Positions 3,885 to 58,589 of a stretch of DNA of 64,000 nt are shown here, piece by piece. This DNA is from an uncultured Roseovarius sp. (GTDB lineage: Bacteria; Pseudomonadota; Alphaproteobacteria; Rhodobacterales; Rhodobacteraceae). The DNA lies in assembly GCA_947499555.1 (NCBI GenBank), contig CANMOU010000001.1, positions 1,178,001-1,242,000 on the forward strand. Reading direction: 5' to 3'. How positions within the stretch are numbered: the first letter of the stretch is position 1; each line of letters starts with the position of its first letter. The notes beneath the pieces are model-generated. The model had not been told where the DNA came from. It ran no database searches and worked only from the letters and a program-made list of their open reading frames with translations. The position numbers and the translations under genes were made by a program.

Positions 3885-5813
3885 GGCTTTCTTTTGCGGC
3901 GGCGGCACGTGCTTGAGGGACAGGCCATGCTGTGTCTTGTCCCAAAAGAAGGGTTTCAGAACAAGCTCGTAAAGAGCCTTGTAGGCGGCAATAGCCCCAA
4001 GCGGCCAGTAAAGGTGCAAGGTCGGCACCCATAGCACCAGATGCCGGTGTTTTGGCTTTGAAACCGCGGCAAGACCAATCCCGATATTGATCGCTTCGAT
4101 GCAAAGAAACAGGACACCGACGGTCATAAGCGTGCTGCGCGCCACAAACGCATCAAGCGGATGCGGCAGCCCCAGAAGCACAAGCCAGAAAGACCACAGA
4201 AACGGCGCTAGAACCGGTTGCGACAATGCCGTGATGAAATGCGCCTGAAAGCCCCAGAACTTGCGTGCGCCCAGTTGCCTGTAAAGTAGAACAGGTCTGC
4301 GCATATGAACCAGATAGGTGGTCATATAGCCCTTGAGCCAACGCGAGCGCTGTTTGACCCAGGCCCAGGCCCGGCAATTGGCTTCTTCTTCGGTCACCGT
4401 GACAAGCATCTCTGTGCGGTAGCCATGGCGCGCCAGACGGAAGCCCAGATCAGCATCCTCGGTCACGTTATGGGCATCCCAGCCGCCAAGTTCTTCCAGC
4501 ACCTCGCGCTTGAAGTAAAGCGTTGTCCCACCCAGCGGAATTGCCAGCCCAAGTCGGGCAAACCCCGGCAAGATCATGCGGAACCAGGCGGCGTATTCTA
4601 TCGTAAAACACCGCGCCAGCCAGTTCTGACGCGGATTGTAGTAATCAAGAATACCCTGAAGACAGACAACATCGCGCGGCGCCGCATCAAATCGACGGAT
4701 GATGCGCGAAATCTGATCTGGGTCCGGAGCATCCTCGGCATCGAGAACACCAATGATCTCTCCGTTGCAGAAATCAAGCGCGTAGTTCATCGCCCTTGGC
4801 TTGGTGCGCGGGCGGCCATCCGGCACCACCACAACCTTGATCCAGGGCGGCAGGTCGATCTGCGCCAAGGTGCGGCTGGTCATTTCGTCTTCTTCCTCAA
4901 GAACAAGCACCACCTCGAGGCACGCCTTGGGATATGTAAGCTGTTCAAGTCGGGCGATCAGGGCATGGGCCACCTCAGTTTCGCGAAAAAGCGGCACGAT
5001 AACAGACACTTTTGGCAACTTCTTGATCTTGTGCAGAAGGGTCATCTTTTTTTGCCTGAGCGGTGAGATCGCCCGCGCGGAAAAGGCCATGGACTTGAAG
5101 ATTGCCGATACAATCAGTGTCAGGGCGGCAAGACCGGACAGCGCAGCGAAAACCTCTTGCGGGTAAATCAGGGCCAGGCCAATAAACCCGCCGAGCAGGG
5201 CTGCGCCAACCACAAGCCGCCGGCCGCGCGTGTTGACCCATGTTCGGCAACTTTCAATCGATGGTGTGCGCGCTGCCGCCGCCTGTGTGAGCGCCACACG
5301 CCGCAACCCGGCGACACGTTGCTTGATCGCGTCCCGGCTGGCCAAAAGGATGCGTGCCTTATGCAGGGAAAGCGGCAAATGCGGGCGGGCCGCGGCAATA
5401 TCGGTCGGGTCGGCACAAATGAGCGCCACCTCGTCATCCAGATCACGAACCGGGAGAATTGCGTGTTTCAGCAGGACCTGCGCGGGCGCACTAACAGGTA
5501 TGGGGCGCATATCAGCCAGCTCGGCGCGGCTCACGGCCCGCGTCTCAAGCCGCTGTGCGCGAAGCTCAACCAGATCCCAATCGCTCACAAGCCCTTCGGC
5601 CAAAAGCACATCTTCCAGCGCGGCCCGGCTTGTCGCCTGCTGCGTCTTGGCCTGCGCAAGTTCTTCAAGGCTAAGAAGCTTCTCGCGCACCAGCAGCTCT
5701 TCCAGAGGGACACCGTCCGCTGCGTCATGACGTTCTGGTGCCTCAGACACGCGCGGTTTGGTCAATGCCATTGGTTCATCCCCTGCCGAAACCTTTCCGG
5801 GGAAGGTCGTCAA
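3858..5813 (-). CDS. MshEN-like domain fused to membrane glycosyltransferase 2
   Basis: A 651-residue inner-membrane glycosyltransferase. Residues about 36-150 resemble the N-terminal domain of type II secretion ATPases (GSPII_E_N/MshEN: LLVREKLLSLEELAQA then LAEGLVSD). Two transmembrane helices follow (about 195-245), then a GT2 catalytic domain with VLDAEDAPD, TEDADLGFRL and the processive-synthase motif QRSRWLKGY, then C-terminal membrane helices. This layout fits a polysaccharide synthase. MshEN domains can bind cyclic di-GMP, but whether this diverged one does is unknown. The polymer is not identifiable. Confidence 0.82.
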   Translation of the reverse strand: MTTFPGKVSAGDEPMALTKPRVSEAPERHDAADGVPLEELLVREKLLSLEELAQAKTQQATSRAALEDVLLAEGLVSDWDLVELRAQRLETRAVSRAELADMRPIPVSAPAQVLLKHAILPVRDLDDEVALICADPTDIAAARPHLPLSLHKARILLASRDAIKQRVAGLRRVALTQAAAARTPSIESCRTWVNTRGRRLVVGAALLGGFIGLALIYPQEVFAALSGLAALTLIVSAIFKSMAFSARAISPLRQKKMTLLHKIKKLPKVSVIVPLFRETEVAHALIARLEQLTYPKACLEVVLVLEEEDEMTSRTLAQIDLPPWIKVVVVPDGRPRTKPRAMNYALDFCNGEIIGVLDAEDAPDPDQISRIIRRFDAAPRDVVCLQGILDYYNPRQNWLARCFTIEYAAWFRMILPGFARLGLAIPLGGTTLYFKREVLEELGGWDAHNVTEDADLGFRLARHGYRTEMLVTVTEEEANCRAWAWVKQRSRWLKGYMTTYLVHMRRPVLLYRQLGARKFWGFQAHFITALSQPVLAPFLWSFWLVLLGLPHPLDAFVARSTLMTVGVLFLCIEAINIGIGLAAVSKPKHRHLVLWVPTLHLYWPLGAIAAYKALYELVLKPFFWDKTQHGLSLKHVPPPQKKASGEALDLA

Positions 5814-5866
5814 ACAAGGTTAAGATGGCGTAAAGAATTGATTAACCGCTGTTGGGCGGGGCGGAT

Positions 5867-7015
5867 TTAGCCTGCCATAGACGCCGCGAAGCGCTCAAAA
5901 AGGTAAAAACTGTCCTGCGGTCCGGGGCTGGCTTCGGGGTGATGCTGGACCGAAAAGACAGGGCGATCCTTCATCCGAATACCGCAGTTCGAGCCGTCAA
6001 AAAGCGACACATGGGTTTCTTCCACACCCTTGGGAAGCGTTTCGACATCAACGGCAAAGCCATGATTCATAGAGGTAATTTCAACTTTGCCAGTTTCGAT
6101 TTCTTTCACCGGATGGTTGGCCCCATGATGACCATGGTTCATCTTGATCGTCTTGCCGCCAAGCGCGAGCGCCAGCATCTGATGCCCAAGGCAAATCCCG
6201 AAAATCGGCAAATCCTTTTCCAGAACTCCCCGGATCATCGGCACGGCGTATGCCCCGGTCGCCGCCGGATCGCCCGGGCCATTTGACAGGAAAACGCCGT
6301 CCGGTTTGTGGCTGAGCACATCCTCGGCAGTTGCGCTGGCCGGCAACACCGTCACTTCGCAGCCCGCTGAGGCCAGACAGCGCAGGATATTGCGCTTTGC
6401 CCCGTAATCGATAGCAACCACCTTGTGTTTGGCCTCTTTCTGACGTGTGTATCCCTCGGGCCAGGCCCAGCGCATTTCGTCCCAGCGATAGGATTGCGCA
6501 CAGGTCACGGTCTTGGCCAGGTCCATCCCCTCCAGCCCGGCAAAAGCCTGAGCCTTCTTCACCAAACCCGCCGGATCAAACTTGCCGTCCGGGTCATGGG
6601 CCAGCGCTACATGCGGCGCGCCCTGCTGACGAATGGCTCGGGTCAGGCGGCGCGTGTCGATGCCACCAATGGCCACCCGTCCCCGCCGCGCCAGCCAATC
6701 GCCCAATCGCTCGGTTGCACGCCAGTTCGACGGCTCGGTCGGGTCCCATTTCACGACCATGCCTTCGGCCACCGGATCGGCGGTCTCGTCATCTTCGGGG
6801 TTCACGCCGACATTGCCGATATGCGGGAAGGTGAAGGTGACGATCTGCCCGGCATAGCTGGGATCCGTCATGATCTCCTGATAGCCGGTCATGGCGGTGT
6901 TGAAGCAAAGCTCAGCCGACACTTCCTTTGCCGCTCCGAACCCTTTTCCGTAAAACAGTGAACCATCGGCAAGAGCGAGGCATGCAGTCGGGCGGGCGTC
7001 AGCGGCTGAGGCCAT
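5867..7015 (-). CDS. carA: Carbamoyl-phosphate synthase small subunit
   Basis: A 382-residue glutaminase subunit that supplies ammonia to CarB for carbamoyl phosphate (arginine and pyrimidine synthesis). The N-terminal CPSase small-chain domain includes FNTAMTGYQEIMTDPSYAGQ, and the C-terminal class I amidotransferase has the nucleophile in FGICLGHQML and the catalytic His in VQHHPEASPGP. Length is standard. carB is not in this window. The 210-bp region to the divergent GatB/YqeY gene should contain both promoters. Confidence 0.96.
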   Translation of the reverse strand: MASAADARPTACLALADGSLFYGKGFGAAKEVSAELCFNTAMTGYQEIMTDPSYAGQIVTFTFPHIGNVGVNPEDDETADPVAEGMVVKWDPTEPSNWRATERLGDWLARRGRVAIGGIDTRRLTRAIRQQGAPHVALAHDPDGKFDPAGLVKKAQAFAGLEGMDLAKTVTCAQSYRWDEMRWAWPEGYTRQKEAKHKVVAIDYGAKRNILRCLASAGCEVTVLPASATAEDVLSHKPDGVFLSNGPGDPAATGAYAVPMIRGVLEKDLPIFGICLGHQMLALALGGKTIKMNHGHHGANHPVKEIETGKVEITSMNHGFAVDVETLPKGVEETHVSLFDGSNCGIRMKDRPVFSVQHHPEASPGPQDSFYLFERFAASMAG

Positions 7016-7225
7016 GGACAGAATCTCCAGATGCGCAAATTGACGCGAACCTAAGGACCGAGGCCAAAGGGGTCAAGAGCCCTTCGCCCCCCAAGAAACG
7101 TTACGTTAACCGCAGGGGACAGCCCAATAAAACAAGGGATATTCGTCCATCACCGCCCTGTTGCGTCGCGAGGCCGTTTCCGGTAGGTCTTGGGTCTTGT
7201 GAAACGGCACGGAGAGAGCCAGACC

Positions 7226-7699
7226 ATGGGATTGCGGATACGCGTGAGCGATGCGCTCAAGCAAGCCATGAAAGACAAGGACACGTCACGCCTTGGGACA
7301 TTGCGGCTGATCAATGCCGCAATCAAGGATCAGGACATTGCCCAGCGCGGCAGTGATGCCGAAACCGAGACCGGTGTGGGTGACCCGGAAATCCTTGCGA
7401 TATTGGGGAAAATGACCAAGCAACGCATGGAAAGCGCACGCGCCTATGAAGAAGGCGGGCGGCTTGACCTGGCCGAAGCGGAACGCGCCGAAATCGGTGT
7501 GATCGAAGAGTTCCTTCCGCGCCAGCTTGATGACGGCGAGGTGAGCAAGGCGATCGAAGCCGCCATCGACGCCACCGGCGCCAACTCGATCCGCGACATG
7601 GGCAAGGTCATGGGCCACCTGAAAGACCAGTATACCGGCCAGATGGATTTCGGCGCAGTGGGCCCAAAGGTGAAGGACAAGCTCTGCGCGGGGGCGTGA
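7226..7699 (+). CDS. GatB/YqeY-domain protein
   Basis: A 157-residue all-helical YqeY-like protein, related to the C-terminal tRNA-binding domain of GatB. Recognisable segments are GTLRLINAAIKD near the N-terminus, YEEGGRLDLAEAERAEI in the middle and DMGKVMGHLK near the C-terminus. I chose the ATG at 7226 because it is preceded by GGAGAG at about 8 nt; an in-frame ATG at 7190 adds 12 residues of poor quality. Its cellular role is not established. It is divergent from carA. Confidence 0.88.
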   Translation: MGLRIRVSDALKQAMKDKDTSRLGTLRLINAAIKDQDIAQRGSDAETETGVGDPEILAILGKMTKQRMESARAYEEGGRLDLAEAERAEIGVIEEFLPRQLDDGEVSKAIEAAIDATGANSIRDMGKVMGHLKDQYTGQMDFGAVGPKVKDKLCAGA

Positions 7700-7731
7700 G
7701 GCGAGAGTGCAGAAATCTGCTTACGCATTCC

Positions 7732-8610
7732 CTAAAGCTTGATATCGGCGATCAATCCAAAGTGGTCTGAACCCAAAAGCGGTCTGGTCTGCAGTTTGCC
7801 ACCGCCCGGCGCAAGTACCATATCGATGGGCAGAGGTATGTTGCGAAGAAAGAGCGTTTGCTGCATAGGGCCTGTGACCTGTGTTCCCGTCGCCGCAGCC
7901 ACGTCTCTAACCCGTTTTGACCAAGGCACGCTGTTGAAATCCCCGCCGACGACGACAGGGCCGTCCAGTTTAGACAAAACATCGAGACCCGCAATCTCAT
8001 TGTCCCGGCTGTCATAGGGCCATGGCCAGGGCAGATGGAGCGAACCAAACCAAATCCTCTCCGCGCCATGCCGTATCGGCACCGCAAGTACCGCGCGTTT
8101 CGTCGAGCATAATGGGGTGCCGTCGATAGGGTGCTGCGAGGCCAATGCGACCCCGCTCCAACTCGAAAAACGGCATAGCGATTGATAGGGGAAACGCTCA
8201 GCCAGAAGATCAAGAACGAACTTATTTTGATCGGATACCTCCTGCAACATCACGATAGATGCGCCGGATGCCTCAATATCCGCGACAATTGACGGGATAG
8301 TTGTGTTCGCGAACCAGAGGTTCTTGGAGTAAACGCGGAGATCCCCCTCGCCACTCTGCGGTAGCAAGTAGATTCCACAGGACCCAACACCGACCAAGCC
8401 GATCACCAAGAGGCCAAATCTTACGGCCCGTGCGCGAAAGACAAGAACCCCAAGAAGGCAAATCAGCGCCAGCAAAGGTCGCCCGATTGAGAGCGAATCC
8501 GCAGCATGGTGAAGACCACCCATGAAGCCGCCCACGACGCCGATGGCCGCCAACGCCACCAGCCCAAAAACGCTTCGCCGCATCAGCTTCAGCACCCTCG
8601 CCCGCCCCAA
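7732..8610 (-). CDS. Membrane-anchored endonuclease/exonuclease/phosphatase protein
   Basis: A 292-residue protein with three hydrophobic N-terminal helices (about residues 13-31, 41-58 and 64-83) and a C-terminal EEP-fold domain. Metal and catalytic residues are visible in MLQEVSD (Glu), FGSLHLPWPWP (His), VVGGDFNSVPWS (Asp/Asn) and LGSDHFGLIADI (Asp-His). Family members cleave phosphodiesters in nucleic acids, lipids or inositol phosphates. The membrane anchor suggests an envelope-facing role, and the substrate is unknown. It converges with the GatB/YqeY gene. Confidence 0.75.
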   Translation of the reverse strand: MGRARVLKLMRRSVFGLVALAAIGVVGGFMGGLHHAADSLSIGRPLLALICLLGVLVFRARAVRFGLLVIGLVGVGSCGIYLLPQSGEGDLRVYSKNLWFANTTIPSIVADIEASGASIVMLQEVSDQNKFVLDLLAERFPYQSLCRFSSWSGVALASQHPIDGTPLCSTKRAVLAVPIRHGAERIWFGSLHLPWPWPYDSRDNEIAGLDVLSKLDGPVVVGGDFNSVPWSKRVRDVAAATGTQVTGPMQQTLFLRNIPLPIDMVLAPGGGKLQTRPLLGSDHFGLIADIKL

Positions 8611-51679: not shown

Positions 51680-53788
51680 TTATGACGCGGCTTCCACCAG
51701 CTGCGAGACCAACGCTTTCATTGTCAGGATACCGTATCCATGGGTGGTGGAATAATCTGCCCCCAGCCCTTCGACAATGGCGGTACGAATGGCCGGGCCA
51801 TCAACCGGAAGATGGTTCTTGTTGCGGGCCTCGATCATGCGCGCGACAAGGCCAATGGCCTGCGCGGTCGCGGCTGAGGTGCCACCAAATCCGAAATTTG
51901 CCCCCTGATGTGACGCCAGGCTTGCCGGATTTTCGGCATAGCCCCCCTGCCCCAGAATATCGGGCGCCGGAACATAGTTGAATTTCTTCCCGGCATCCGG
52001 ATCGGGCTTGGCCGCCGGATTCTCATCACGGTCACTGGGGCAAAGCGCACAAAGTCCCGGCCCCGACTGGCTGTATCTGGCCGGAACAAGTTCGGATCCC
52101 TTATCCTCTGGCGAGGACAGTTTGGCGGACCCTACAACGATGATGCCTGTGCCCAGAAATGGATCCTCGGCGTTCATCGACAATGAATCCATCGCCCGCT
52201 CCAGATCTTCCGTTGCACCGGGCGCACCCAGTTCCACAAGCATCTCCGCAACCCAAGCGCGGCCCTGCGCATCCCTCAACGTCGCCGCAACAGCGGCAAA
52301 ATCTTCCGGTGCGCCGGGATAGGAAATCTTGCTGCTGCCATCGTTGCCCGACGGGATCAGTACCGGCACTTTCAGCCCGGCGACAAGAATGGCCAAGGCC
52401 AAAGGATCACAGGGCTTTTTCGCAAAACCCGCGTTGTCAATGTTTTTCCCCCAGTCTTGGGGATAAGATTTGGCATCAGGGCGCACAAAGGGCGGGCCGA
52501 ACAGAATCGCATTCACGTTGGCCTGCCCGTAGGCCATCTTCAGGATTGCTTGACCAACCATCATCCGGTTTTCGTGCGTGTCAGAGACTAGGTTTGTCAC
52601 CCGGGCTGGCAAAAGCTTTGCCTCTGGCGCGGTGCCCCAGATTTCACAAAGCCCCTTCTTATGCGTACCGGCAATCAGTCCACCCATTGCGGTGCCATGC
52701 CCGCCCCCTTTTGAGGCAAACGCCATCCGCCCATCATGATACTCCGCATAATCCGCGTTAATGACAGAATTGGACGCTTTCCAGATCGCCGGATCGGTTG
52801 TCTGGGCCAGTTCCGCGTCGATGGCATGATCCTTGTCGCGCGAAAAAGTTGGATGCGTGACATCGACCGGCCCATCGACCAGCCCAACAATCACGCCAGC
52901 GCCGCCCTTGTCGACGGGCATATCGCCTGACCCGATTCCCATCAGCGGCAAGGTCCACTGATCAATCGCCGTTGGTTCTTTCGGCTTCGGAATGCGCTCT
53001 TCGGTCGGATTGTAGCCAAGATAGGGAGACGGACCAGGGTCATAGCTCTGCACATCGGCAATGGCTTCGACAAAAAGCTCGTCCAGGATGTCGCGCAACT
53101 GCGTAAAGGCCGCCTGTGCGATATCCGCCCCTGCCGCCCCGTCCGAGGCATAGTGAACCCCGGCCCACTCACGGTTCTCGCGGATGCGGTAGGCCACGTC
53201 GAACGCTTCGGCCACGATACCCGGATCATATGCAAAGATTTCGGCGATGCCATGTGCCAGCAACGCCGACTGCGTGGCGTGACCGCTTGGATACGCGGCG
53301 TGATGCGGCACGGTGATGGTCGGGTCGATCCCGTGATCCACAACATGCGGCCGCGGACGATTGAATTTTTCCTTGTAACGCGAGGCCAGCGCAAGACCGG
53401 CATTCTGAAGCTGCGTCAAAAGCCGCACAACACTTCCCGGCACACCTGCCGCATCATCAAATATCGACAGGAAAGGAGAGATGATATCGTCAATCTCGTC
53501 AAGAATTTCCTGCTGGCGTTCCGCGCGTTCCGGGTCGGCCTGTTTGGCCAGAAGATCATCAAGCTCGCGCCGTTCGGTTTCATCGTTGAAAGCCGGGGCA
53601 CCGGGGACATCATTTGCGTCCAGAAGCGCCACGATCTCGTCAAAACGGGCATAAATCCTGCGCCGGTACTTTTCGTCCCGCACACCCCAGGCGCCCGACA
53701 AAATTACAGAGGACTTTGTTTTTGTCTTCGTCTTCGTTTTTGTCTTGGTTTTGGTCTTGGTTTTTGTCTTGGTTTTTGTCTTGGTCAT
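51680..53788 (-). CDS. PAP2/haloperoxidase-like domain fused to S8 subtilisin protease
   Basis: A 702-residue two-domain protein. Residues 2-25 are twelve Thr-Lys repeats. Residues about 60-245 form a PAP2/vanadium-haloperoxidase fold with a full motif set: K139..RPRP (Lys, x6, Arg-Pro), YPSGHA (167-170) and R206..H212..D216 (REWAGVHYASD). Residues about 295-700 are a subtilisin domain with Asp305 (GLVDGPVDVTHP), His364 (GGGHGTAMGG), Asn482 (PSGNDG) and Ser638 (GGTSAATAQA). No signal peptide. The start is ATG 53788, with AAGGA 7 nt upstream. Third gene after the unknown protein and the SARP-like regulator. The substrate of either domain is unknown. Confidence 0.87.
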   Translation of the reverse strand: MTKTKTKTKTKTKTKTKTKTKTKTKSSVILSGAWGVRDEKYRRRIYARFDEIVALLDANDVPGAPAFNDETERRELDDLLAKQADPERAERQQEILDEIDDIISPFLSIFDDAAGVPGSVVRLLTQLQNAGLALASRYKEKFNRPRPHVVDHGIDPTITVPHHAAYPSGHATQSALLAHGIAEIFAYDPGIVAEAFDVAYRIRENREWAGVHYASDGAAGADIAQAAFTQLRDILDELFVEAIADVQSYDPGPSPYLGYNPTEERIPKPKEPTAIDQWTLPLMGIGSGDMPVDKGGAGVIVGLVDGPVDVTHPTFSRDKDHAIDAELAQTTDPAIWKASNSVINADYAEYHDGRMAFASKGGGHGTAMGGLIAGTHKKGLCEIWGTAPEAKLLPARVTNLVSDTHENRMMVGQAILKMAYGQANVNAILFGPPFVRPDAKSYPQDWGKNIDNAGFAKKPCDPLALAILVAGLKVPVLIPSGNDGSSKISYPGAPEDFAAVAATLRDAQGRAWVAEMLVELGAPGATEDLERAMDSLSMNAEDPFLGTGIIVVGSAKLSSPEDKGSELVPARYSQSGPGLCALCPSDRDENPAAKPDPDAGKKFNYVPAPDILGQGGYAENPASLASHQGANFGFGGTSAATAQAIGLVARMIEARNKNHLPVDGPAIRTAIVEGLGADYSTTHGYGILTMKALVSQLVEAAS
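53714..53785 (-). repeat. Hexamer tract encoding (Thr-Lys)12
   Basis: Twelve imperfect copies of ACNAAR, on the minus strand, encode the alternating Thr-Lys tail of the fusion protein. Codons vary (ACC, ACA, ACG; AAG, AAA), so the repeat is held at the protein level. A change of whole units keeps the frame and would alter the tail length only. Confidence 0.9.
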
Positions 53789-53860
53789 TTCAAAGTCCTT
53801 CCACGTCCCGCGCGCACCCTGCGCAATCACCCACTCACAAAACTCTCAAATCTCCGGCGC

Positions 53861-55672
53861 TCAGGCCGGTTTGCAATCCAATAACTCAAGTTTCCGCAAC
53901 CCGTCGGTAATCACACTCACACTCAAGGCCGACGGCAGCACATAGGCTGGTGACAGCATCTCGTCGGTGCCATAGGCCGGGTCAAGCGCGCGCAGGCGAC
54001 TATACATGCCCAGCGCTTTTTCATTCTGACCCTTATGCGAATAGCTGGCCACAAGATGGCGCATCACAGGCAGGAAATCCGGTCGTTTGGCCAGAACTTG
54101 TTCGCCGATCAAGATGGCATCTTCATGACGCCCCTCCAGCGTTGAAACAATTGCCGCAGACGCATCGTAATAGAACCGGTAGGGGCTATACCGACCCAGG
54201 CGTCGGGCGATGTTTGCCGCTTCGCGGGCCGTTCCGAGATCGCCGGAGTAAATCGCGTTCATGGCCGTCGCATCCCACCCGAAGGCAAGGTTAGGCAGCG
54301 ACCTCCGGCTTTCGGCCAGCAGGCGGCGGCCTTCCCCCAATTCACGGCGCACGAACCCTGCCACATGCCCGGCAATCGCCAGAACGACGGCGTTCGACGG
54401 CTCCGCTTCCAGCGCGCGGGTCAAATGCACCATGGAGTCTTTCACCGCATCCTCGCAGGGATCGTGTCGCTCACCCAAAAGAAGCGTATTCGCAAAGGCG
54501 CGCCAGGCCTGGGCATTGGCAGAAAAGACTTCGCCTTCAAACTGGCTGAGCATATCGCGAGAATCGACGATCCCGTCGCGGGACAAGGCAAACAGCTGAT
54601 GCACAGCGGCATAAAGCGTGGGCCGTGACGCCCGCCCCGCCTGCCGCATCACAACAGCTTCAATGGAATCGGCGGCACCGGCCACGAATTCGTCGAGGGT
54701 CTGGGACGAGATCGAAATGGCCGTTTCCCAATCCGTTCCGATGGAAGAGGTCCAGACAACCTTGCCCGTCGCAGGCACACGCGCCAGAATCGTGATCTGC
54801 AGCTCTCGCGCAATCAGCGACAACCGTGTTTCCACCAGAACCGGCGGACATAGAACGCTTTCCGTTTCGCGCCCGGCAAGCTGATTGCTCTCCATGTCGC
54901 GCAAATCGTAGGTCTCAAGATAGCCATTATGCCGGAACGTCGTGGCAATCGCGTTTGTGATACGCTCGGCCACGACCTCGGCGAGATTGTCATCCGCGAT
55001 CACCACCGGGTTGCCGATCAAGACACAAGGGCGCGTCTCGAACGTGACCGGCGCGACGGGGCGCGCGACAGCGCCTGTATCCACCATCGCACCCCGATCA
55101 TCCTCGATACGGGCGTCAAAGGCTTGCCGCTCTTCACGCAGCCAGTCTTCGCCCCCTTCGTCAAGGCGCGGCGCGTCTTCGAAAAAGACCGCGCGATTGT
55201 CGCAACCGGGATCAAGCTGAACGTCCAGCCCCGAAAGCCAGACATGCTCGTAATCGGCCTGAACCGTATCGCTCCACGGCCCAAGCAGCTTGCGCAGTGC
55301 GTGCAATGACTGTCGCAGTGAATTGCTCGCCTGATCTTCGAAGGACCGGCCCCAAAGTCGTGCTTTCAACCATTCGCGTGACCGCCGGCGATCTCGCGCC
55401 GTTGCCAGCATGGCCAGAAGCACCCGGCCCTTCTTCTCTGAAATCCGAATTTCGCGCCCGTCGGGATCACACAGCTGAAAGTTCCCGACAAGCGACAAGG
55501 TCAGCCGGTCTTGCTCTTTCGCTTTGAAGCTCCCCATGGGCGCATCCCCACCAAATCCGTCGCTTCCGTCAACCCCGACAAGGGTTTCCGCTTCGAGACT
55601 ACGCACAGCGGCTTGCCTATGGCAACCGCTATCCCAGCTTTGCGGCTGTCTCGTTTGCTGCAGGATTGTCAT
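53861..55672 (-). CDS. SARP-like transcriptional activator with TPR-like repeats
   Basis: A 603-residue regulator. After a 55-residue N-terminal stretch comes an OmpR-type winged helix (about 58-135: LSLVGNFQLCDPDGREIRIS, LKARLWGRSFEDQASNSLRQ and LHALRKLLG), as in SARP/BTAD activators. A middle domain (about 215-360) resembles the TolB-like module of adenylate-cyclase-type regulators. The C-terminal part (about 375-595) is helical and TPR-like. The ATG at 55672 has GGAGG 8 nt upstream and overlaps the stop of the 177-residue gene. It probably activates this operon and/or the haloperoxidase gene. Confidence 0.78.
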   Translation of the reverse strand: MTILQQTRQPQSWDSGCHRQAAVRSLEAETLVGVDGSDGFGGDAPMGSFKAKEQDRLTLSLVGNFQLCDPDGREIRISEKKGRVLLAMLATARDRRRSREWLKARLWGRSFEDQASNSLRQSLHALRKLLGPWSDTVQADYEHVWLSGLDVQLDPGCDNRAVFFEDAPRLDEGGEDWLREERQAFDARIEDDRGAMVDTGAVARPVAPVTFETRPCVLIGNPVVIADDNLAEVVAERITNAIATTFRHNGYLETYDLRDMESNQLAGRETESVLCPPVLVETRLSLIARELQITILARVPATGKVVWTSSIGTDWETAISISSQTLDEFVAGAADSIEAVVMRQAGRASRPTLYAAVHQLFALSRDGIVDSRDMLSQFEGEVFSANAQAWRAFANTLLLGERHDPCEDAVKDSMVHLTRALEAEPSNAVVLAIAGHVAGFVRRELGEGRRLLAESRRSLPNLAFGWDATAMNAIYSGDLGTAREAANIARRLGRYSPYRFYYDASAAIVSTLEGRHEDAILIGEQVLAKRPDFLPVMRHLVASYSHKGQNEKALGMYSRLRALDPAYGTDEMLSPAYVLPSALSVSVITDGLRKLELLDCKPA

Positions 55673-56202
55673 GAAACATGACCTCCGAATTGATCAGGCG
55701 ATCGACGAAAATCATTGGGCAAAAGTTCATCTTTCCAAGGCAGGTAATCGGCCTTGAAATGGATTGTCGCCCCGGGTTCGTTTTCACCAAGTAAAAGACA
55801 TCGCGAAGCCGCCGCCTTGGTTCGGGGGCCAGGCTTAAACCGCGCGGCCCCCTTCAGACGCACACCCTCGTCTGAACTTTCCAAGGCGAAATACCCATCG
55901 CCACCAATAAACGTACCCTTTGGCTCGTATCCATCAGGAACCACCTGCTCCACGATGAAAATTTCCAGACCATCTGGTCCCTGCGAGATGAGCGTTGCGC
56001 ACATTTCAAGGTCGGGAGAAAGCCCTTGCGGAGCTTCACTCTCAAGCCCCGTGCACGCGCCGGCATTGGAGACGCTTAAAAATGTATTTTCCCCCCCAGA
56101 TCTTGATACAATCAGATACTCGCTACGCTCACTTATGATCGTTTGGGGATGCAAAAAGCTTGCCACGGCACGCCGGTTTTGCATGGCAATACAAAAAGTC
56201 AC
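55669..56202 (-). CDS. Unknown 177-residue protein, first gene of the protease operon
   Basis: Predicted start GTG 56202, 9 nt after GGAGGA; a longer frame without a ribosome site begins at 56274. No signal peptide and no recognised domain. It has a beta-rich look: FLHPQTIISERSEYLIVSRS, then EIFIVEQVVPDGYEPKG and GYFALESSDEGVRLKGAARF. The FIGGDGYFAL segment could be a small sandwich fold. Its stop overlaps the regulator start (ATGA), so it is coupled to it. Confidence 0.65.
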   Translation of the reverse strand: MTFCIAMQNRRAVASFLHPQTIISERSEYLIVSRSGGENTFLSVSNAGACTGLESEAPQGLSPDLEMCATLISQGPDGLEIFIVEQVVPDGYEPKGTFIGGDGYFALESSDEGVRLKGAARFKPGPRTKAAASRCLLLGENEPGATIHFKADYLPWKDELLPNDFRRSPDQFGGHVS

Positions 56203-56328: not shown

Positions 56329-56510
56329 CAAAACTTTACATCTCGTTGCGAGGATGATTCACCGAAAAACGCCTGAAATTTTTTACGCATTTTTGCGTGC
56401 TGTCCCCCGGTTTACCTAACGGCAGCCTGACGGGGCTCGCGCAGTCTGACGTCGTGGGTGGCTGAAACCACGCGTTCATACGCGTCATTTAAGAGGTGGA
56501 GGTATATTTT

Positions 56511-58589
56511 ATGAAGTTACCATTTTCAGAACCGTTTCTGGCTGGCTCGGGCCGCGCCCGTAAAGCCAAAGAGTTGCGTGATCTTGCAACCGAAGTCTCG
56601 CGTCTTGCGCCACAGGCGCTCACGCGGACAAATCAGGAAGAAGTTGATCACGCGCCGAAATACCCCGCGAATTTCACCAAGGGTCTGGCGCATGATGAAT
56701 ATGGCGTCCTTGACGAGCAGAATGACTATGCCTGTCTTGTGGAGGCAATCAACTCGCCCAATCCAGGCGATTTTGACAAACGTATCGTGCGCTTTTTCGA
56801 TGAGTTTGATTGCCAGCCTCTGGATCGCAACCACAAACCGCTAAAGGATAAACAGGGCAAGCCTGTCAAGACCGGATGGCGCGGGTGGGAAAGCCCAAGA
56901 GCCGGACATGTGTTCGAGCTTCAGGGCCCTGATGCCGGCGCCGTCGGCATGGCCCCTGCCCCTCGGGTGAGCACACACGAACTGGCGGCAGAAATGGCCG
57001 AGGTTTATGGCCTTGCGCTTTTGCGGGACGTGCCATTCACCGAGATCTGCGAGGGCAATGGCGACCGGCTGTGTGGTGATGATGCAAAACCGGCGAAGTT
57101 GAATGCCGATGAGGTTGCATCCCTGATCGCAGGCATGGAGTTCTTCTCGGCCTCCGACGACAGCATGGATCAGTTTTCGCGCAACCGGCGAGATGCCCGG
57201 CTCATTGGCGGGCCCATCACGGCGGAAACGGCCTTTCGCGGCTCAACAGTGGGCGCGATGGACGGGCCGTATATTTCGCAGTTCATGCTGATCGGATCGG
57301 ATTCCCGCGCAGGCGGCAATCCCGGCGCTGGCGTCTCGAATTTCCCCGACCTCAACGCAGGCTGGGATTTCCGCGACGGCTTCATTCAATATGGCACGCA
57401 AGCCATTGATCAAAGGGGGCAAACCGCCAAGCCCTGTCTGGATTACATGACAGACTGGCCGGCGTGGCGAGATGTCCAGAACGGCGCGAATTTCGGCGGG
57501 CTCGACGTCTATGAGCCTCAGCGCCGGTTCATAACCACGCCGCGGGATTTGGCCACTTATGTGCATTTCGATCAGCTCTATCAGGCCTATTTGAATGCGG
57601 CTTTGCTGTTGTTGTCGATGAATGCGCCGCGATCCAAGGGCTTTCCCGAGCCGTCGTTTTCGGGTCACCGCACAGATTTCGCAACTTTTGGCGGGCCACA
57701 CATCCTGTCCTTGGTTTGCGAGATCGCCACACGGTGCCTCAAGGCCGTCCGGCGGCAGAAGTTCAACTATCATCGCCGGGCACGTCCCGAGGCGATGGGC
57801 GGACGGCTTACGCTGGCTTGTGCGGATCACCTCGACAAGCTGGGTTGTGCAGGTCCGGGCTTCGCAGAGATGCTGGATCAAATTCCCGATGATCTTCTGC
57901 ATGCCGTGATCCATCACAACAAGGATCAAAACAGCACCGCGATGAAAAAGATGCGCCGCCTGGCCTGCAAGCACAAAGGGGCCGGCCTGCCCAAGGGGAT
58001 CGACGAGCATTGCAACCTGCTCTTGCCGATGGCCTTCCCTGAAGGCAGCCCCATGCACCCTGCCTATGGCGCAGGCCACGCAACGGTGGCTGGCGGGTGC
58101 GTGACCGTGCTCAAGGCCTTCTTCGAGATGTTTGAAGACTGTGACAGCAAGGTCGAGCGCAAGCTGACATTCTGTGACGACCACGGTCGGGAAAAGCCGA
58201 TCCGCTACGTGCCAAATGGCGACGGGTCATGCCTAATCCAGGACCCCAAGTCGCAGAATGCGCTGACAGTGCAAGGTGAGTTGGACAAGCTCGCCGCCAA
58301 TATCTCGATCGGGCGAAATATGGCCGGTGTGCATTACTACTCGGACTATTACGACAGTCTGCGCATGGGCGAACGGGTCGCTGTGGGTCTCTTGATGGAG
58401 CAGAGCCCAACATATGTCGAACCTGTCGATATGTCCTTCACCAGCTTCGATGGCGATCACATTCGGATTTCCGGCGCTGCCGGGTCCGCGCCATCCATTT
58501 CCATCCTCGACCAGTCTGGCAGTCCTGTACAGCTGGCTGACTGGTGCCTTCGCCATGTGAGTGGGGCGGAGGCCATGGAGGATCTGTAG
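56511..58589 (+). CDS. Vanadium-dependent haloperoxidase homologue
   Basis: A 692-residue protein of the algal/bacterial vanadium bromoperoxidase type, which oxidises halides with H2O2. Vanadate-binding residues align with the Corallina enzyme: Lys417 and Arg425 (KFNYHRRARPEAMGG), HPAYGAGHATVAGG with Gly522-His523, and Arg602/His608 (GRNMAGVHYYSDYYD). The serine normally before Gly-His is Ala521. No signal peptide is seen. The start is ATG 56511, 8 nt after GGAGG. It faces away from the SARP/protease operon and ends at a strong terminator. Confidence 0.87.
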   Translation: MKLPFSEPFLAGSGRARKAKELRDLATEVSRLAPQALTRTNQEEVDHAPKYPANFTKGLAHDEYGVLDEQNDYACLVEAINSPNPGDFDKRIVRFFDEFDCQPLDRNHKPLKDKQGKPVKTGWRGWESPRAGHVFELQGPDAGAVGMAPAPRVSTHELAAEMAEVYGLALLRDVPFTEICEGNGDRLCGDDAKPAKLNADEVASLIAGMEFFSASDDSMDQFSRNRRDARLIGGPITAETAFRGSTVGAMDGPYISQFMLIGSDSRAGGNPGAGVSNFPDLNAGWDFRDGFIQYGTQAIDQRGQTAKPCLDYMTDWPAWRDVQNGANFGGLDVYEPQRRFITTPRDLATYVHFDQLYQAYLNAALLLLSMNAPRSKGFPEPSFSGHRTDFATFGGPHILSLVCEIATRCLKAVRRQKFNYHRRARPEAMGGRLTLACADHLDKLGCAGPGFAEMLDQIPDDLLHAVIHHNKDQNSTAMKKMRRLACKHKGAGLPKGIDEHCNLLLPMAFPEGSPMHPAYGAGHATVAGGCVTVLKAFFEMFEDCDSKVERKLTFCDDHGREKPIRYVPNGDGSCLIQDPKSQNALTVQGELDKLAANISIGRNMAGVHYYSDYYDSLRMGERVAVGLLMEQSPTYVEPVDMSFTSFDGDHIRISGAAGSAPSISILDQSGSPVQLADWCLRHVSGAEAMEDL

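Follow-up and report, generated by a model that had tools for sequence, protein, structure and literature searches.

Class A non-specific acid phosphatases (PDB 7f17, PhoN 2akc, E. blattae 1d2t) have a soluble PAP2 fold and its catalytic set, and the motifs of the PAP2 superfamily (PF01569), namely K-x6-RP, PSxH and R-x5-H-x3-D, are also found in vanadium-dependent haloperoxidases. The S8 fold, with its Asp/His/Asn/Ser set, occurs in intracellular subtilisins (PDB 7xr8, 2wv7) and in the cyanobactin proteases PatA/PagA. Short peptides and proteases are joined in two further kinds of system: RRNPP signalling involves a protease, a short peptide and a TPR receptor, and in kexin and cyanobactin processing repeat precursors are cut into multi-copy short peptides. 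Among the titles and abstract openings listed in full-text searches of an open-access library, none describes a pair of PAP2 enzyme and protease like that of the locus presented here.

A fused PAP2-S8 protein

The window, that is, the whole stretch of DNA analysed, comprises 64,000 nucleotides of a contig from an uncultured Roseovarius sp. The fused gene (51680..53788, minus strand) is a single unbroken frame that runs from an ATG at 53788 to a stop at 51680 and encodes 702 amino acids. The sequence AAGGA, ending 7 bases 5' of this ATG, is a plausible ribosome-binding site, and an in-frame GTG at 53830 is a possible alternative start. The protein begins with 12 perfect Thr-Lys units, (TK)12 (aa 2-25; 53714..53785, minus strand), which are encoded by mixed codons (ACC5, ACA5 and ACG2 for Thr; AAG7 and AAA5 for Lys). 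The repeat is followed by a PAP2 domain resembling class A acid phosphatases (aa 26-246; 53051..53713, minus strand) and by an S8 subtilisin domain (aa 296-673; 51770..52903, minus strand). The preliminary description had reported that a single chain holds enzymes of two unrelated families, each with a complete catalytic set, and both sets are present in the frame. The repeat had no place in that description and turned out to be the hallmark of the family.

The PAP2 motifs are KEKFNRPRP (aa 139-147), PSGH (aa 167-170) and REWAGVHYASD (aa 206-216), at positions 53141-53374. The Pfam PAP2 match of the protein (E=5e-6) reaches 26.7 bits against a cut-off of 27.2, and rises above the cut-off, to 29.4 bits, when scored on the genome. 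Among the 71 loci compared, the K, R, S and H residues are conserved in all 71, and R, H and D of the third motif in 68, the remaining three being gaps where the extracted sequence ended. The second motif is PSNH in 67 of these loci and PSGH in four.

The two halves were modelled separately because whole-length alignments of fused and split proteins looked wrong. Structure prediction had been put forward in the preliminary description as a check, and it yielded both a PAP2 and an S8 fold. The model of the PAP2 half (pLDDT 85.9) has the helical PAP2 fold, with TM(target) values of 0.69-0.75 to 7f17/7f18 chains. In sequence as well as in fold, class A acid phosphatases are its best match: it matches acid phosphatases at E=5.6e-22 and vanadium haloperoxidases, which share the superfamily motifs, weakly (E=3e-4). 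This half thus appears phosphatase-like, and the label of haloperoxidase that it had initially been given, with the close relationship that this implies, is not supported. Residues 1-30 of the model, which cover the repeat, are of low confidence (block means 63, 52 and 55) and have no secondary structure.

The S8 half carries the catalytic residues D305, H364, N482 and S638 (Pfam S8 match, E=5e-16). His, Asn and Ser are conserved in 71 of 71 loci compared and Asp in 68. Its model (mean pLDDT 78, pTM 0.88) has a subtilisin fold and matches subtilisins at E ~1e-10, PatA/PagA being among the fold matches, and intracellular subtilisins are the best match in profile searches. Inspection of the S8 half by eye did not reveal a kexin-like acidic S1 pocket. 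PADLOC gave a weak generic subtilase profile match alone, and membership in a defence system was rejected on this ground.

Full-length matches to the fused protein were found in three of 147 relative genomes, namely the source genome itself, G032 (76% identity) and G046 (62%), in each case with no stops; in all, 16 of the 147 matched the protein (search E to 1e-10). A scan of 84,980 species genomes added two more full-length fused genes, likewise free of stops, in L017 and L018 (65% and 59% identity in the alignment). The preliminary description had held that separate halves in close relatives would indicate an assembly join or a frameshift. The PAP2 and S8 genes do lie side by side as separate genes in most related loci, and this rule among relatives is what could speak for an artefact, but the full-length fused genes in five separate genomes, four of which are 59-76% identical to the window protein over the whole length, rule it out and leave that explanation with virtually no credit. 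The fusion is real. In a quick tree with many weak forks, the PAP2 domains of all five fusions group together in a single clade (SH-aLRT 99), and the protein is a fusion, of one origin, of two genes that are neighbours in relatives.

A conserved cassette with proteases of different families

Relatives of the fused gene belong to a conserved cassette consisting of a TPR regulator, a phosphatase-like PAP2 enzyme with a repeat, and a protease. In the window, the regulator gene (53861..55672, minus strand) encodes 603 amino acids with TPR and a weak winged-helix match (Trans_reg_C, below cut-off), and the same family is found upstream of the PAP2 gene in relatives. The head of the regulator varies, being of the winged-helix type in some loci and a class III cyclase in others, with the TPR region behind it.

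The species scan yielded 138 matching stretches, of which 115 were confirmed and 80 kept as named loci. In these 80, the PAP2 gene is present in all, the regulator in 78 and an S8 domain, adjoining or fused, in 77 (fused in two), counts that are conditional on likeness to a profile built from cassette members. Both loci without a regulator (L025 and L026) lie on contigs of about 4 kb. The order regulator, PAP2, S8 on one strand is found in 72 of the 80, and in 33 of the 74 split pairs measured (L024 being left out) an S8 start codon is placed no later than the first base after the PAP2 stop. Pairwise distances of the PAP2, S8 and regulator proteins closely agree (r 0.94, 0.90 and 0.96; 71 loci, leaving out L004, L009, L020, L021, L025, L037, L058, L071, L077 and L002-L016); therefore, the three travel together.

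Outside this set, 28 distant loci of Pseudomonadota with a repeat-bearing PAP2 protein were followed, as a first 20 (S8 in 18) and a further eight (S8 in three). Their protease is S8 in 21 and a Pfam Peptidase_A4 protein, which we take to be a glutamic peptidase, in five (L136, L143, L193, L194 and L195); in the other two, L197 and L198, the repeat is present and no protease was seen. The S8 assignment of L134, L138 and L148 comes from a family profile built in this work, Pfam giving no match. The first 20 were drawn from a set of matches of which L106 and L107, which belong to group 1, and the five weakest, L126-L130, were left aside; L126, L128 and L130 showed no repeat. Orientation varies among cassettes: L137, L138 and L155 have a convergent S8 gene, and in L149 this gene is found on the far side of the regulator. 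Six group-2 loci (L011-L016), which stand outside both the 80 and the 28, have the repeat in five cases; the surroundings of these five, L011 and L013-L016, were searched, and an S8 relative lies beside each.

In L020, the place of the protease is taken by a 797-aa protein (5589-7979, 15 bases 3' of the PAP2 gene) that gave no match in Pfam and no sequence match in the PDB. It contains HEISHLLGALH (HExxHxxGxxH), a metzincin-like zinc motif. Hence one role is filled by proteases of no fewer than two unrelated families and, to judge from this motif, perhaps of three.

The PAP2 part also matches 71 plasmid records, whereas a phage collection gave no match, and carriage by phages was discarded accordingly. 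In seven plasmid records the parts are annotated as a 'SARP family transcriptional regulator' or hypothetical protein, a PAP2-type phosphatase and an 'S8 family serine peptidase'. Since the parts are listed under these separate names only, the system is easy to overlook.

The tandem repeat

A perfect tandem repeat of units of 2-4 residues lies near the start of the PAP2 protein in 78 of the 80 named loci (at least 8 aa), in 69 of them with a length of at least 12 aa. The latter length is reached in all 28 distant loci, the shortest being that of L198 (12 aa). The units differ in charge and character and include KT, NR, NK, SR, SK, AK, GR, QA, AM, AH, NRD and GGGR as well as GGGH, GGGA, GGA, GGF, GSF, SGA, AGV, NAE, NAD, TGN, TQQ and others. 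On a tree of 112 rows, from which the repeat itself was excluded (as were L009, L012, L025 and L058, near-copies or with a gap), there are 29 unit types and at least 31 changes. Lineages keep their unit despite considerable divergence, as in 40 rows with NR and 24 with NK. All four genomes with two repeat-PAP2 loci have different units in the two: NAE and GGF in G240, GNQ and TAM in G479, TSN and NAD in G568, and GSF and EGGG in G828, where no protease was seen at the EGGG locus.

Such repeats are not a general property of PAP2 proteins or of the surrounding genes. Twenty-three Pfam PAP2 matches in 21 genomes included four with a repeat, all cassette members, and 16 others without; two gave no ORF, and in L169, a cassette gene, the repeat was not found, undetermined bases lying nearby on the contig. 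Among 431 neighbouring ORFs (cut-off 14 aa) and the 187 other window ORFs of at least 100 aa (cut-off 12 aa), not one had such a repeat, and chance was rejected as its source.

Repeat and protease occur together. All 78 repeat-bearing named loci have either S8 (77) or the protein with the metzincin motif (one). The two repeat-less homologues, L057 and L070 from Caulobacter, which form one clade, gave no S8 or A4 profile match even at E 10 in stretches of 10.5 and 6.4 kb, the latter ending about 840 bases behind the PAP2 gene; the TPR regulator remains in both.

The repeat is conserved as a peptide. In 71 of 85 loci, neighbouring units resemble each other less at the DNA level than expected from cassette codon usage (sign test 2e-10, which ignores kinship), and with one locus per unit this holds for 21 of 27 (p=0.006); repeats shorter than 16 aa, L025 and L058 were left out of this test. 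Adjacent identical units number 94, compared with 100.2 under within-repeat permutation and 138.1 from cassette codon usage, and codon order inside the repeats looks random. The codons being mixed, the array is not kept by DNA copying or slippage; the peptide is. Microsatellite slippage and phase variation were rejected for the same reason, and because the units are multiples of three bases. AGA and AGG make up 128 of 554 Arg codons in the repeats, compared with 11 of 71 in the 50 codons before and 9 of 160 in the 50 after. These rare codons are also commoner near gene starts (55 of 338 among the initial 60 codons of S8 and regulator ORFs, taken with their called starts), so that the excess is partly a gene-start effect. 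This effect and the near-permutation count of identical units weaken the case for active codon selection against DNA repetition, of which codon diversity is no proof.

Genes next to the cassette

Divergent from the window cassette lies a gene for a vanadium-dependent bromoperoxidase (56496..58589, plus strand; PDB 5lpc, E=3e-122), which neither Pfam nor NCBIfam named. Homologues adjoin cassettes in G032 (L102, as two ORFs), L029, L055 and L214 (24% identity), thus with four repeat types (KT, NR, AK and GNQ). By tblastn, two of the 80 named loci have one near the cassette, and most show none. The bromoperoxidase is present in eight of 145 relative genomes. A group-1 or fused cassette is found in five of these eight and in five of the 137 others (p=3e-5), and with all 16 cassette-like matches the figures are five of eight and 11 of 137 (p=4e-4); both tests ignore kinship and take the genome sets of 147 and 145 as one. 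The bromoperoxidase is possibly linked in function to the cassette.

Between the bromoperoxidase and the regulator lies a gene for a 177-aa protein of no known family (55669..56202, minus strand), whose stop overlaps the regulator start. Homologues lie close to the cassettes of L017, L018, L029, L055 and, as judged by eye, L103. In the window, L029 and L055 the protein occurs together with the bromoperoxidase, but in the stretch examined of L017 and L018 no bromoperoxidase was found. The corresponding stretch of L102 has stops in the frame translated.

Other genes accompany particular cassettes. On a Palleronia plasmid (L154:7434-10456), genes for an animal-type haem peroxidase and a C1 peptidase lie behind the cassette. 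In two loci from plasmid records (L153:8334-10720 and L159), an aKG-HExxH homologue lies near it. A second S8-like gene is found near the cassette in L033 (78-1751) and 11 more named loci, nine of these 12 also having a LuxR-type cluster gene.

What the repeat may do

The likeliest role of the repeat, which we put forward tentatively, is that of a handle giving the protease control over the PAP2 enzyme. The strongest clues to function are the unrelated proteases that accompany repeat-bearing PAP2 proteins and the repeat-less homologues without S8 or A4, and from them we infer that the protease may read the repeat. The cognate protease would recognise it and cut its PAP2 partner, and this proteolysis, cued through the TPR protein, would remove, release, activate or destroy the PAP2 enzyme. 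Each lineage would keep a private repeat 'code', insulating the pair from other proteases, and in the fused clade the pairing would have become intramolecular or would take place between copies of one chain.

In favour of a handle are the two unrelated protease families, with perhaps a third by motif, in the same role, and the fact that repeat and protease go together (28 and 26, respectively, of the 28 distant loci). The mixed codons of the repeats, the agreement of the pairwise distances, the single clade of the fusions, the differing units in genomes with two loci, the likeness of the S8 part to intracellular subtilisins and the close spacing of many split pairs also count in its favour. 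Several observations count against it. Units such as GGA, GGGA and QA have no obvious protease site, L197 and L198 have a repeat without a visible protease, the orientation of the S8 gene is not fixed, the two repeat-less homologues belong to one clade, with a short stretch behind the PAP2 gene in L070, and the S8 domain of the fused protein could act on other proteins. Nor is there a correlation between repeat and S8 charge within group 1 (Spearman 0.03, 77 loci), and therefore no sign of complementarity; an electrostatic match between repeat and protease was rejected, the negative correlation over all 94 loci being confounded by ancestry. It had been suggested at the outset that proteolysis acts on a product or partner of the other half of the protein; the exchange of protease families supports this suggestion, which we, too, only infer.

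Somewhat less probable is a generalisation, in which enzyme-protease modules of Pseudomonadota would use a perfect short repeat as a lineage-private code, or as a signal, for a protease that can be exchanged. In this class, selection would keep the peptide periodic though codons drift, whole codes would be replaced at once, and the fused protein of the Roseovarius clade would be its self-contained form.

Alternatively, the repeat could be a reservoir from which the protease chops identical short peptides that the TPR regulator senses, so that the unit would be the signal; this is unlikely, as is the corollary that a change of unit is a change of signal and that the system works like the RRNPP peptide receptors. 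The exact identity of the units at the peptide level fits such a reservoir, as do the TPR-type regulator in 78 of 80 named loci and the TPR matches in scanned regulators. A homologue of the aKG-HExxH peptide beta-hydroxylase (NCBIfam) also counts in its favour; it lies near 14 of the 80 cassettes, all of Rhizobium type, and near those of the two plasmid records, and a ThiF-type gene is found with it in 12 of the 80 and in both plasmid records. However, only one clade has the modification genes, TPR proteins of such build have many other roles, and no export signal was noticed by eye.

It is likewise rather improbable that the repeat is a disordered tether, surface-binding or self-associating, and that the protease is merely co-regulated and has unrelated substrates. 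Most group-1 units are basic (KT, NR, NK, SR, SK and GR), and the low model confidence and lack of secondary structure of the repeat region agree with a tether. However, neutral, aromatic and acidic units (QA, GGF, GGA, NAE, NAD and DGM) stand at homologous positions, a plain spacer needs no exact repetition, and the replacement of S8 by another family would be left unexplained.

More doubtful still is that the protease is the effector, kept in check by the PAP2-repeat protein as its pseudo-substrate inhibitor or sensor until a phosphate ester or an oxidant cues its release. No Pfam inhibitor or propeptide domain is reported for the scanned S8 proteins, and extra S8-like genes lie near 12 of the 80 cassettes (Pfam confirmed six of the six scanned), both of which would suit it. 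Yet the catalytic residues of PAP2 show the conservation of an enzyme, a single inhibitor is unlikely to fit unrelated protease folds, and the only PADLOC match was the weak one to subtilases.

If the pairing of repeat and protease works as a handle, it would represent a new regulatory or signalling principle, in which an interchangeable peptide code links proteases of unrelated chemistry to one enzyme. The roughly 29 natural units, nearly all with a neighbouring protease, offer a means to study the evolution of specificity and a source of orthogonal protease tools. The repeats also provide a clear example from nature in which the exact periodicity of a peptide is selected for independently of DNA repetition.

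Comparison with known systems

RRNPP signalling and kexin or cyanobactin processing share with the cassette a protease and short peptide units in multiple copies, and RRNPP systems also a TPR receptor. In contrast to them, the units here have only 2-4 residues and are joined to a conserved enzyme, and no export was seen. RRNPP signalling would call for a TPR receptor that has a DNA-binding head and lies next to the source of a peptide, and for a precursor that is secreted and taken up again; the regulators have TPR matches and a weak Trans_reg_C match, and no signal peptide was noticed by eye. With respect to RiPP pathways, defined by a short precursor and tailoring enzymes, aKG-HExxH and ThiF genes occur only in one Rhizobium-type clade, and it is within a conserved enzyme that the repeat is found.

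Unlike class A acid phosphatases, the PAP2 protein has no noticed secretion signal; it carries a repeat near its start and is either fused to a protease or grouped with one in a cassette, alongside a TPR regulator. Unlike intracellular subtilisins and PatA/PagA, the S8 protease described here either shares its chain with a repeat-bearing PAP2 protein or has one as its partner.
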